A stretch of DNA of 32,807 bases, from assembly GCA_027297745.1 (NCBI GenBank), contig JAPUHK010000184.1, positions 1 through 32,807 on the forward strand, in the 5' to 3' direction. A model generated the notes under the pieces. That model did no database searches, was not told where the DNA came from, and saw only the letters and a program-made list of their open reading frames with translations. Shown here piece after piece: positions 29,112 through 32,807 of this stretch. The number at the start of each line of letters is the position of its first letter. Within the stretch, counting starts at the first letter, position 1. The translations under genes and the position numbers were made by a program. The stretch is from Planctomycetota bacterium. GTDB taxonomy: Bacteria > Planctomycetota > PLA2.

Positions 29112-29720
29112 ATGGTATCCGAGGTGCTGGGGCTCCTGGGCCTGTTGGTCGCTTCCTATCTGTTGGGCGGAATTCCCTTCGGGTACCTGTACGCCCGCTT
29201 TGTGAAGGGCGTCGACATCCGCACCATCGGCAGCGGCAACGTCGGCGCCACCAACGTTGCGCGCCTGTATCCCCCCCGCGCCGGCATTCTGGTGTTCCTG
29301 ATCGTGTTCACCCTGGATGCCGGCAAGGGCTACGCGGCGGTGGAGTTGCTCGCGCCGCTGATCAAACCCGCCCCGGCCGTCGAGTACGTGCCGGTGTTGG
29401 CCGGTCTCGCTGCAGTGCTGGGCCATTCGTTCACCCCGTACCTCGGGTTTTCGGGCGGGAAGGCGGTGGCCACGACCTTCGGGGTGTTCATCGCGCTGGA
29501 GCCGGTCGCGACGCTGGTTGCGCTAGGCGTCTTCTTCATGGTCTACGCCATCACGCGCGCGGTGGGCGCCGGCTCCCTGGCCTTCGCCGTTGCCCTGCCT
29601 GTGGCGGTCTTCGTGCACGGCGAAGCGCACCAGTCGGTAGGCTATCTGGCGGTCGTGCTCGGAATCTTGATCGTCGTTCGCCACCGCGACAACATTAGCA
29701 AGATGCTGGGGAAGTCATGA
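29112..29720 (+). CDS. plsY: Acyl-phosphate glycerol-3-phosphate acyltransferase PlsY
   Basis: Inner-membrane enzyme that puts the first acyl chain on glycerol-3-phosphate from acyl-phosphate, starting phospholipid synthesis. The 202 residues contain several membrane segments and the three family motifs: SYLLGGIPFGYLYAR and IGSGNVGATNVAR (motif 1), ALGHSFTPYLGFSGGKAVATTFGV-type motif 2 (here VLGHSFTPYLGFSGGKAVA), and VRHRDNISKMLGK at the end. The ATG at 29112 may not be the true start: GTG 29124 also fits the alignment. It overlaps gpsA by 4 nt, which supplies its substrate. Confidence 0.95.
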   Translation: MVSEVLGLLGLLVASYLLGGIPFGYLYARFVKGVDIRTIGSGNVGATNVARLYPPRAGILVFLIVFTLDAGKGYAAVELLAPLIKPAPAVEYVPVLAGLAAVLGHSFTPYLGFSGGKAVATTFGVFIALEPVATLVALGVFFMVYAITRAVGAGSLAFAVALPVAVFVHGEAHQSVGYLAVVLGILIVVRHRDNISKMLGKS

Positions 29721-30688
29721 AGGTCCTGGTCTTCGGCGCCGGTGCGTGGGGCACCACTACGGCGATTCACCTGGCGCGCAAGGGTGCGCGCGTTGTGCTG
29801 TGGGTCTACGAGAACGACCTGGCCCACGAGATGGTCGAGGTCGGCGAAAACAGGCGCTATCTGCCGGGCTTCCCGATTCCCAAAGAGGTCGTGATCACGC
29901 ACGATCCCGTCGGCGAGTTCGACGTGATCGTCAACGCGGTGCCGACCCAGTACATCCGCCCCACCTGGATCGACTGGCGCGGCAAGCTCGCGGGCAATGC
30001 GCCCGTGGTCTCGCTCAGCAAGGGCATCGAGATCGGCAGCGGGCTGCGGCCGACCGAAGTGCTCGGGCAGGTGCTGGGGCAGGAGCGCGGCCTCGGCGTG
30101 CTCACGGGGCCGTGCATCGCGATCGAGATCGCCAAAGGGCTGCCGACCGCCGCCGTGTTGGCGGGCAAGGCCGTGGCCAAGTTCCAGCCGCTGTTCAACA
30201 GCAACCTGTTCCGCGTCTACACGAGCGACGACCTGGTCGGGGCGGAGCTCAGCGGCGCGGTCAAGAACATCATGGGCATCGCCGCCGGCATCGTGGACGG
30301 CCTCGAGCTCGGCGACAACGCCAAGGCGGCGCTGCTGACGCGCGCGGTGGTCGAGGTGGCGCGGCTCGGCGTGGCGTTCGGGGCGCAGCCCGAGACGTTC
30401 AACGGGTTGGCCGGGTTCGGCGACCTGCTGACCACGTGCGTGAGCCCGCATGGGCGCAACCGGAGCTTCGGCGAGCGGCTCGGCCGCGGGGAGAGCGTCG
30501 AGGAGATCCTGAACAGCCGCGCGTCGGTGACCGAAGGCGTGCCGACCACGAAGGCGGTCATGGAGATGGCCAAGAAGAAGGGGATCGAGATGCCGATCAC
30601 CGAGGTGATCTACCGCATCGTGTTCGACGGCCTCGACCCGCGCTCGGGCGTGAACGCCCTCATGACCCGCACCCTCCGCCCGGAGTAA
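29717..30688 (+). CDS. gpsA: Glycerol-3-phosphate dehydrogenase [NAD(P)+]
   Basis: Reduces dihydroxyacetone phosphate to sn-glycerol-3-phosphate for phospholipid synthesis. The 323 residues have the Rossmann start VLVFGAGAWGTTTAIHLARKG, VNAVPTQYIRP, VSLSKGIEIGSG (catalytic-region lysine), LSGAVKNIMGIAAGIVDGLELGDNAKAAL and GLAGFGDLLTTC. The segment at 131-137 reads GPCIAIE where most members read GPS/N-F/H-A-x-E, an unusual substitution of otherwise conserved residues. Its ATG overlaps the plsY stop (ATGA). After the stop lies a 345-nt non-coding region shared with the convergent gene on the minus strand. Confidence 0.96.
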   Translation: MKVLVFGAGAWGTTTAIHLARKGARVVLWVYENDLAHEMVEVGENRRYLPGFPIPKEVVITHDPVGEFDVIVNAVPTQYIRPTWIDWRGKLAGNAPVVSLSKGIEIGSGLRPTEVLGQVLGQERGLGVLTGPCIAIEIAKGLPTAAVLAGKAVAKFQPLFNSNLFRVYTSDDLVGAELSGAVKNIMGIAAGIVDGLELGDNAKAALLTRAVVEVARLGVAFGAQPETFNGLAGFGDLLTTCVSPHGRNRSFGERLGRGESVEEILNSRASVTEGVPTTKAVMEMAKKKGIEMPITEVIYRIVFDGLDPRSGVNALMTRTLRPE

Positions 30689-30970: not shown

Positions 30971-31029
30971 CGAGCCCGAGCCCGAGCCCGAGTCCGAGTG
31001 CGAGCCCGACCCCCGAGCCCGCGCCCGAG
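30971..31029. repeat. Degenerate CGAGCC hexamer tandem repeat
   Basis: About ten units of the 6-bp motif CGAGCC/CCGAGC, four near-perfect at the left, then with substitutions (CGAGTC, CGAGTG) and loss of register. It lies just after the stop codon of the minus-strand gene ending at 31034. Confidence 0.75.
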
Positions 31030-31033
31030 AAAC

Positions 31034-32254
31034 CTACCGCACTCCGAACGTCAGCTTGCAGACGTACAAGAGGCGGGTGTCCCGGCGCTCGACGAAGTCT
31101 TCGAGCAGGTCGGCGACGTTCGGGAAGACCGCCTGCGCCTGCGGGTAGGGGCCGTTGATCGCCACGCGCACCGGCTTGTCCACGTCGATCAGCCGCGGAT
31201 CGATGTAGAGGTCGAAGGCGACCACGCGCTCGCAGCGCACGACCACCAGGTTGCCCTCGAGGATCTCCGCCTCGATCTTGCCGGGCTTGCGCATGGCCAC
31301 GGCCGTGCGGGTGCCCACCTTGGCACGGTACTTGGAGAGCCCCGCGGGGTGCGCACGCAGCCAGAAGGCGCGCATCGGCTCCGGCCGGTCCAGTACCAGC
31401 GTCAGCTTGCGCGGCGCATCCTCGCGCTTGGCGTAGCTGCGCCAATGGCGGATGTCCGACAGGAGGCTGCTTTCGTCGTTGCGGTCAAGCAGCCGGTGCA
31501 GCTCATTGTGCTTGCGCAAGGCGCTCATCAGCTGCTTCATGGCTGTGCTCGGCTCGCGCTTGTCGATGCCGAGCGCATAGAACGTGGCCGCGTTGGGCGC
31601 CAAGGGGGCCGCCCCCTTCCACGTCTCGAAGGCCGCCATCACCCCCCCGAAGCGATCGGGGTTGTGCAGCGCGATGTACCAGGCCAGGCGCGCGGTAGCC
31701 TTCTCACCCTGCAGAGTGACGCGCGCCGGGTCGATCGGGTACGTGCCGAGCATGTGACGCTGCAGACTGAGGATCAGCGACTCGACGCCTTGCGCCGTGC
31801 GCGGATAGCGCCGGTGGTTCACGTGCAGCGAGAATGCGCCGGGGTCGCGATGCCTACGCACGGTCGAGCCGAGGTCGATCGTGAGCGGATAGATCTTCTC
31901 GGGGTCGTAGTCGTCCGGCGGCAACAGCTGCGCGAGATGACCCGCGCTCTGCGAGACGTCCTGGAGGCGCACGTCTTTCTGGTCGAAGACCGGCGCCGGC
32001 AGCCGCTTCGAGAGCGCCGGCCGGCCGATGCGCGGGCGGTGCCGGCCCGCCCGCAGGGCGCGCACGACCGGCTCCGTCTTGCCGCCGGTGAGCAGCTCGA
32101 TGGCCTCGAGATAGTCCTCGCGGCGCGCGGGGCTCTCCTCGCCCAGATACCAGCGCAAGAGCTTGCTCAGGCGCTGCTCGATGGCGCCGGGGGCGGCGAT
32201 GGCTGGTGCAGCCTGAAGCCCGATGCAGCAAAGCGCCAGCAACCCCAGCCGCAT
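31034..32254 (-). CDS. Exported degenerate alpha/beta-hydrolase (esterase-like)
   Basis: A 406-residue protein with a signal peptide (LGLLALCCIGLQAAPAIAAP). The middle looks like an exported esterase/phospholipase-type alpha/beta-hydrolase: YPLTIDLGSTV (where active members have L-H-G-G), then YPIDPARVTLQGEKATARLAWYIALHNPDRFGGVMAAF, matching the nucleophile-elbow region. In the elbow the G-x-S-x-G consensus is replaced by G183-E-K185-A-T187, so the catalytic Ser is Lys, and the oxyanion His-Gly is lost. The C-terminal module (VRCERVVAFDLYIDPRLIDVDKPVRVAINGP) is typical of planctomycete hydrolases by my recollection. It is therefore probably a non-catalytic binding protein. The ATG overlaps the stop of the DUF488 gene (TGATG). 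Confidence 0.75.
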   Translation of the reverse strand: MRLGLLALCCIGLQAAPAIAAPGAIEQRLSKLLRWYLGEESPARREDYLEAIELLTGGKTEPVVRALRAGRHRPRIGRPALSKRLPAPVFDQKDVRLQDVSQSAGHLAQLLPPDDYDPEKIYPLTIDLGSTVRRHRDPGAFSLHVNHRRYPRTAQGVESLILSLQRHMLGTYPIDPARVTLQGEKATARLAWYIALHNPDRFGGVMAAFETWKGAAPLAPNAATFYALGIDKREPSTAMKQLMSALRKHNELHRLLDRNDESSLLSDIRHWRSYAKREDAPRKLTLVLDRPEPMRAFWLRAHPAGLSKYRAKVGTRTAVAMRKPGKIEAEILEGNLVVVRCERVVAFDLYIDPRLIDVDKPVRVAINGPYPQAQAVFPNVADLLEDFVERRDTRLLYVCKLTFGVR

Positions 32255-32601
32255 CACGCCTCCAACATCTTCTTCAGCAGCGACCGGTGGCAGCGCGTCT
32301 CGTCGGCGCAGTCGCACAGCACGGAGATCTTGCGCTTGCGGGCCTGGGCAGCCAGCTCGGAGATCTTCTGCTTGGGCACGGCGCTGCGCATTTGCTTCAC
32401 ATAGGAACGCGCGAAGTCGGCCCAGGGAATCGCACCCTGCTTGTAGCCGTGGATCAGCTCCTTGGTGGGCGCCAGGTCGCACCACCAGTCGTCGACCTGG
32501 TCCTTCTTGACGCCGCGCGGCCAGTAGCGCATCACCAGCACGCGCTTACCGTCGCGCGGCTTGCGGGGCTCGCGGACGCGCCGCATCCCGACCTTGGGCA
32601 T
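32254..32601 (-). CDS. DUF488 family protein
   Basis: A 115-residue protein of the DUF488 family, whose biochemical role is not established. Conserved blocks: RVLVMRYWPRGVKKDQVDDWWCDLAPTKEL near the N-terminus and ISVLCDCADETRCHRSLL at the end, where the Cys/His cluster is the usual family ending. ATG 32601 was chosen: it lies 7 nt after a TAGAAT hexamer and gives a family-like length. A GTG at 32625 in the same frame would add 8 residues. It is translationally coupled to the degenerate hydrolase by a one-base overlap. Confidence 0.85.
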   Translation of the reverse strand: MPKVGMRRVREPRKPRDGKRVLVMRYWPRGVKKDQVDDWWCDLAPTKELIHGYKQGAIPWADFARSYVKQMRSAVPKQKISELAAQARKRKISVLCDCADETRCHRSLLKKMLEA

Positions 32602-32608
32602 GGGGACG

Positions 32609-32614
32609 ATTCTA
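32609..32614 (-). promoter_or_regulatory. Candidate -10 box for the DUF488 operon
   Basis: TAGAAT on the minus strand ends 7 nt before the ATG at 32601, with no Shine-Dalgarno between. Initiation at the usual distance would fall on the start codon itself. Confidence 0.4.
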
Positions 32615-32650
32615 CGCGGGATCACTCGAGCGGCTTTTCGGTTGGCCTAT

Positions 32651-32676
32651 CGCTCCCGCTCCCCCTCCCGCTCCCG
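32651..32676. repeat. Short CGCTCC hexamer repeat
   Basis: CGCTCC occurs three times with one CCCTCC unit (CGCTCC CGCTCC CCCTCC CGCTCC), just upstream of the tRNA promoter and before a small hairpin, GGCGC GTA GCGCC (32677-32689). Confidence 0.65.
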
Positions 32677-32729: not shown

Positions 32730-32807
32730 CGGGGCGTAGCGCAGCCTGGTTAGCGCGCTTGACTGGGGGTCAAGAGGTCGGAAGTTCGAATCTTCTCGCC
32801 CCGACCA
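32730..32807 (+). tRNA. tRNA-Pro, anticodon GGG
   Basis: A complete cloverleaf of 78 nt: acceptor stem CGGGGCG/CGCCCCG, D-stem GCGC/GCGC with loop AGCCTGGTTA, anticodon stem CTTGA/TCAAG with loop CTGGGGG (anticodon GGG), variable loop AGGTC, T-stem GGAAG/CTTCT with loop TTCGAAT, discriminator A and encoded CCA. It decodes CCC/CCU proline codons. The CCA forms the last three bases of the window. Confidence 0.97.

Follow-up and report, generated by a model that had tools for sequence, protein, structure and literature searches.

An apparently exported, elbow-less alpha/beta-hydrolase-fold protein of a Planctomycetota bacterium and its module-bearing relatives

Non-catalytic proteins with an alpha/beta-hydrolase fold are best known from animals. 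Neuroligins, neurotactin, gliotactin and glutactin have this fold without a functional catalytic triad, and neuroligin is a cell adhesion molecule (PMC5943944). In the NDRG family, which also has the alpha/beta-hydrolase fold, the entire triad is changed to non-reactive residues (PMC7022630). The protein described in this study differs from both groups, because it is bacterial, whereas the neuroligins and their relatives are animal cholinesterase-like proteins, with which its likeness rests on the fold and the loss of catalytic residues, and the NDRG family is eukaryotic. Neither a signal peptide nor a beta module of this kind is known from the NDRG family. CE1-type feruloyl esterases and related secreted esterases (for example LC-Est1C, PDB 3wyd; the XynZ feruloyl esterase, 1jjf and 1jt2) resemble it in the hydrolase domain, including the elbow region. 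These esterases are catalytic and have the elbow Ser, whereas the present protein lacks the Ser, the oxyanion His-Gly and the triad His, and has extra N-terminal helical and C-terminal parts. It is also distinct from the extracellular short-chain PHA depolymerases of type 1, because its score against the NCBIfam model of these enzymes (NF050058) is 16 bits, far below the curated cut-off of 150 bits.

The window, by which we mean the whole stretch of 32,807 nucleotides analysed, comes from a genome assembly of 312 contigs. The gene at 31034-32254 on the minus strand translates as one uninterrupted 406-codon frame, in agreement with the first-pass annotation, which had described it as open and of full length. 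The features of the locus are as follows.

31034..32254, minus strand: elbow-less alpha/beta-hydrolase-fold protein, coding sequence including the stop, 406 aa, with orthologues in four other genomes
32195..32254, minus strand: signal-peptide-like start, residues 1-20 (MRLGLLALCCIGLQAAPAIA), recognised by eye
32036..32191, minus strand: N-terminal helical segment, residues 22-73, from the model and the alignment
31415..31942, minus strand: alpha/beta-hydrolase-fold domain, residues 105-280, from the model, fold searches and alignments
31691..31708, minus strand: degenerate nucleophile elbow G-E-K-A-T-A, residues 183-188, with the K185 codon at 31700-31702, from alignments
31037..31414, minus strand: C-terminal beta-rich module, residues 281-406, from the profile search and the model
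32254..32625, minus strand: DUF488-N3a gene (Pfam E 2.5e-33), overlapping the start of the elbow-less gene by a single base (TGATG)
29717..30688, plus strand: gpsA, convergent downstream neighbour, identified by Pfam in the window and by likeness in L004 and L005

The N-terminus is hydrophobic in a similar manner in all four orthologues, and the window protein is apparently exported, as judged by eye from its signal-peptide-like start.

The window protein gives no Pfam match at E up to 1. One PDB sequence match is listed for it at E up to 1, which is LC-Est1C (E 0.048) in an alignment that spans the elbow region, and residues 22-104 match nothing when they are used for the PDB sequence search. 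The AF2 model of the protein, built from five sequences, is weak (mean pLDDT 64.8, pTM 0.55); nearly all of residues 208-279 are below pLDDT 50, and the latter half of the hydrolase domain is not well positioned. Foldseek ranks LC-Est1C first (E 2.3e-05), followed by a DPF-3 peptidase and feruloyl esterases, with eight matches at E 0.001 or better and with low TM-scores by query length (0.16-0.24). Among the best 50 of the 1000 chains compared by VIA-align, the top Z is 10.9 (rmsd 4.7, 154 aligned), and 3wyd_A is matched with Z 9.7 (rmsd 3.2, 131 aligned). Nearly all of the fold matches listed are, going by their names, what we take to be alpha/beta-hydrolase-type enzymes, and one is uncharacterised. 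The model, weak as it is, supports the assignment of the window protein to the alpha/beta-hydrolase fold superfamily. Among 17 members of the family searched against Pfam, the families matched by at least two members are hydrolase or peptidase families, and five further families either are hydrolase folds or are matched by a single member at E 0.0007-0.01; NF050058 matches 13 of the 17 aligned members at E up to 0.01. In the window protein, Pfam finds nothing in the C-terminal module. When modelled alone, it consists of beta strands and one helix (pLDDT 79.9, pTM 0.70), and its comparison with PDB structures gives nothing usable (best E 1.7 with Foldseek, best Z 3.7 with VIA). A new fold is not demonstrated by the absence of a usable PDB match.

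The first-pass annotation had proposed that the nucleophile Ser is replaced by Lys185, the following Gly by Thr187, and that the oxyanion His-Gly is gone. The family alignment bears out all three substitutions. The nucleophile column is occupied by K185 (in QGEKATA), followed by A186, T187 and A188, where most relatives have G-x-S-x-G-G, and the oxyanion column is occupied by G129 (in IDLGST) in place of H-G. The four orthologues, L004-L007, have A, A, A and G at the oxyanion column. At the triad-His column, the window protein has D260 and L004-L007 have Q, Q, A and R, so that His is absent from all five proteins. At the triad-Asp column, which lies in a poorly modelled region, the window protein has D231 and L004-L007 have V, V, H and G; what is left of the triad Asp in the window protein may be this D231. 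The sequences around the active site that define the fold (DPxR and ALHNPDRF) persist, and so does the C-terminal module, as had been noted before. The protein therefore has, the nuance of D231 aside, the fold of an alpha/beta-hydrolase in the absence of the catalytic residues, and the proposal of a pseudoenzyme is supported by the loss of the Ser, the oxyanion His and the triad His from a fold that is kept.

A search for homologues with the same Lys had been suggested as a check on this proposal, and none is found among the five family proteins: Lys is confined to the window protein, and the others have R, R, G and G. Since the nucleophile Ser is nevertheless lost in five of the five family proteins, the conserved feature of the family on this alignment is the loss of Ser, not the gain of Lys, and a conserved Lys chemistry is rejected. 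The elbows of the orthologues read AGEREEA and AGGREEA (longer by one residue), ADGAVA and ADGSRA. Chance or an assembly error is unlikely, because the loss is present in all five family genomes examined.

An intact triad elsewhere in the protein, named in the first-pass annotation as an observation that would speak against a pseudoenzyme, is not found, and the predicted structure, although weak, matches alpha/beta-hydrolases. The residues invariant in the five proteins among S, C, T, H, D and E are S41, D47, E53, H72, S163, D175, D200, D386 and D392. The hydrolase domain contains no invariant His, Cys or Thr across the five proteins, because the sole invariant His (H72) precedes the domain, and a search for G-x-S-x-G gives no match in any of the five. 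An alternative triad is rejected because of the lack of an invariant His in the domain and of G-x-S-x-G in the five proteins. Strings of the form S/A-x-S-x-G occur in three of the five, at position 101 of the window protein (SQSAG), position 133 of the G003 protein (ADSAG) and position 261 of the G002 protein (APSSG), none of them at the elbow. The first two share a column, but this column is C, C and V in the other three proteins, and these strings are rejected as an elbow. It is also improbable that the fold has been kept for an enzyme whose active site has moved to residues other than the classical triad. Alpha/beta-hydrolase folds do carry out non-hydrolytic chemistry elsewhere, and S163, D175 and D200 are invariant within the domain and could serve such an enzyme, but the absence of an invariant His, Cys or Thr from the domain and the variation of the elbow region among the orthologues argue against it.

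The gene is present with an open frame in five of the five genomes examined of its Planctomycetota family, and a search for orthologues at E up to 1e-20 finds none in 12 other genomes of the order. Across 392 genomes of the phylum, the bit score falls from 630 for the window protein itself to 107 for the next protein. The four orthologues are 42, 42, 41 and 34% identical to the window protein. The two closest to each other are 82% identical, with a dN of 0.107 and a dS of 0.303, which give a ratio of 0.36 for this one pair. For the same pair of genomes, the ratio is 0.34 for the HEAT-repeat gene and 0.13 for gpsA, which is more constrained. The comparison of this single orthologue pair shows purifying selection on the elbow-less protein. 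The possibility that the gene is a decaying esterase relic on its way to loss agrees with the low identity to the orthologues (34-42%) and with an elbow that drifts freely, but it is disfavoured as very improbable, because the frame is open in all five genomes, the dN/dS ratio of the one pair is 0.36, the N-terminal segment is well conserved and the third-position G+C of the gene is high.

The conservation of the N-terminal segment exceeds that of the rest of the protein. Invariant positions in the five proteins amount to 20 of 52 in residues 22-73, 31 of 176 in residues 105-280 and 22 of 126 in residues 281-406, and the difference of the N-terminal segment from the hydrolase domain (Fisher p 0.0024) and from the C-terminal module (Fisher p 0.0037) is to be read as that of a pattern spotted first and tested afterwards, on five sequences of which two are close. 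When one of the two close orthologues is omitted, the permutation p for the four remaining rows is 0.004, and the mean pairwise identity reaches 46% in the N-part (taken as at most 90 residues preceding the hydrolase domain), as against 37% in that domain and 38% in the module. In six other clades, picked by us and including active-looking and Ser-less ones, the hydrolase domain is conserved above the N-part, which is the reverse of the window's clade.

We consider that the window protein is probably an exported, non-catalytic member of an esterase-like family of Planctomycetota, which would bind its partner via the N-terminal helices. Its parts are arranged in the order of a signal-peptide-like start, a helical segment, an alpha/beta-hydrolase domain and a C-terminal beta module. 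Ser-His-Asp ester hydrolysis would have been given up, and the protein would act by binding. The working contact surface is placed on the N-terminal helices because these helices, and not the old active site, are best conserved, and the hydrolase and beta domains would then serve as a scaffold. Candidates for the partner are a polymer, a paralogue that is still active and some other protein of the envelope. The role in the envelope that the first-pass annotation suggested, by binding or as a structural part, would be plausible.

The genome of the window contains six module matches at E up to 0.001; that on contig C172 is the weakest, with an E-value of 1.1e-4 over half the profile. The elbow is intact in three of the six, on C47 (GFSDGG, with PDZ), C168 (GHSMGG) and C253 (GFSMGG), and the elbow Ser is absent from the other three, which are the window protein and those on C311 (FADGNDAA) and C172 (GAHDGG, in which Ser is replaced by His). 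Candidates for the active paralogues, a search for which the first-pass annotation had suggested, are the active-looking proteins on C47, C168 and C253, and a GHSAGG protein on C311. Inactive homologues often pair with active ones and regulate them. The window protein might likewise act as a regulatory pseudo-subunit, joined to an active paralogue of the same cell that bears the module, for which the three active-looking module proteins and the one without the module on C311 are available, but we regard this as unlikely, and the active-looking paralogues sit on contigs other than that of the window.

The Ser-less protein on C311 (G000:C311:2742-3053; L172, 1333-2967, minus strand) has a signal-peptide-like start, the module and an elbow without Ser. 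It is adjoined on the opposite strand by the active-looking GHSAGG esterase, in which no module is detected. The protein on C172 (G000; L173, 1189-3147, minus strand) has a weak module match and keeps the two Gly residues that follow the His. L015, from another family of the order, has GGHQAF at a place similar, by eye, to that of GAHDGG on C172.

The C-terminal module is detected at E up to 1e-6 in 250 of the 392 sampled genomes of the phylum, which is about two thirds. The 126 proteins read consist of 100 places chosen among the matches listed, 25 of the 31 loci L002-L032 and the window protein; the loci omitted are L003 (module not found), L017, L018 and L019 (fragments), L028 and L029. The nucleophile Ser is present in 103 of these proteins and absent from 21 (G in 16, R in 2, and K, A and P in 1 each), and 2 are unreadable (L015 and L083), in a sample that is biased to good scores against a profile which itself contained Ser-less rows. 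Among the 124 readable proteins, 18 of the 21 without Ser are also without His. A His lies at most two residues from its column in 99 of the 103 Ser-containing proteins, but in 3 of the 21 Ser-less ones. The corresponding numbers are 102 of 103 and 7 of 21 for an Asp at most one residue from its column, and 98 of 103 and 9 of 21 for an oxyanion His at most one residue from its column. The losses of Ser and His go together in this wider sample, with strong Fisher values that ignore relatedness; pair tests on the tree for the joint loss of these two residues find two starred pairs and have no power. The loci L033-L061, which are outside this count and partly overlap the places read, were given a rough look for the motif, and the Ser is replaced in L041 (GTGTGG), L058 (GHGTGG) and L059 (GHAMGG).

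In a quick maximum-likelihood tree, for which the elbow columns were removed, the five rows of the window's clade stand together (support 100) and join L008, L012 and L032 (support 96); the starred branches of this tree are less sure. L008, L012 and L032 keep the Ser (GYSRxG), but lack the oxyanion His and the triad His. This result fits a stepwise decay, in which the His and the oxyanion residue would have been lost first and the Ser later, on a tree without a known root. A second Ser-less group contains 13 rows, 12 with Gly and one with Ala, and one unread row (support 86). The losses of Ser need at least five changes on the best tree, two of which are forced by starred branches, and a single origin of all of them is not rejected on the quick tree (AU p 0.095). 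This second group lies in other families of the phylum (L022, L027, L072, L079, L139, L142, L152, L156, L158 and L167), which have Gly at the nucleophile position and often keep the next Gly.

We propose tentatively, and with somewhat more doubt than belief, that Planctomycetota possess a large undescribed family of secreted alpha/beta-hydrolases with a C-terminal beta domain of its own, that catalysis has been dropped more than once in this family, that selection has moved from the hydrolase domain to the N-terminal helices in the window's lineage, and that esterases have in this way given rise to a new class of binding proteins in the bacterial envelope. A literature search of titles and abstract openings, largely without subscription journals, finds no paper describing this family. 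The route to non-catalytic alpha/beta-hydrolase proteins would then be the same in a bacterial phylum as in animals, and this one family, with members that look active, half decayed or decayed, would provide a natural series from an esterase to a binding protein. Active-looking and decayed module proteins coexist in one genome, and the C-terminal domain, which Pfam does not match in the window protein, is spread over 250 of the 392 sampled genomes.

The first-pass annotation had also coupled the gene to DUF488. The TGATG overlap and the Pfam assignment of the neighbour to DUF488-N3a stand, but no DUF488 gene is seen within about 1.3-1.5 kb of the four orthologues. DUF488 is rejected as a general functional link, because it adjoins the gene in one of the five genomes over flanks of this length. 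Convergent gpsA is seen in three of the five genomes (the window, L004 and L005; ORFs within about 1.3-1.5 kb), and a HEAT-repeat gene lies upstream in L004 and L005, for one of which Pfam was run. The divergent neighbours in L006 and L007, recognised by eye, are presumably integrase-like and M28-peptidase-like, respectively. Hexamer arrays (CGAGCC and CGCTCC units) are located at 30971-31029 and 32651-32676, outside the elbow-less gene and its DUF488 neighbour. They may be due to chance in a G+C-rich genome; the genome has two copies of their 17-base core, as compared with five of a backward-read control. A tRNA-Pro (GGG) is located at 32730-32807, at the extreme end of the contig.
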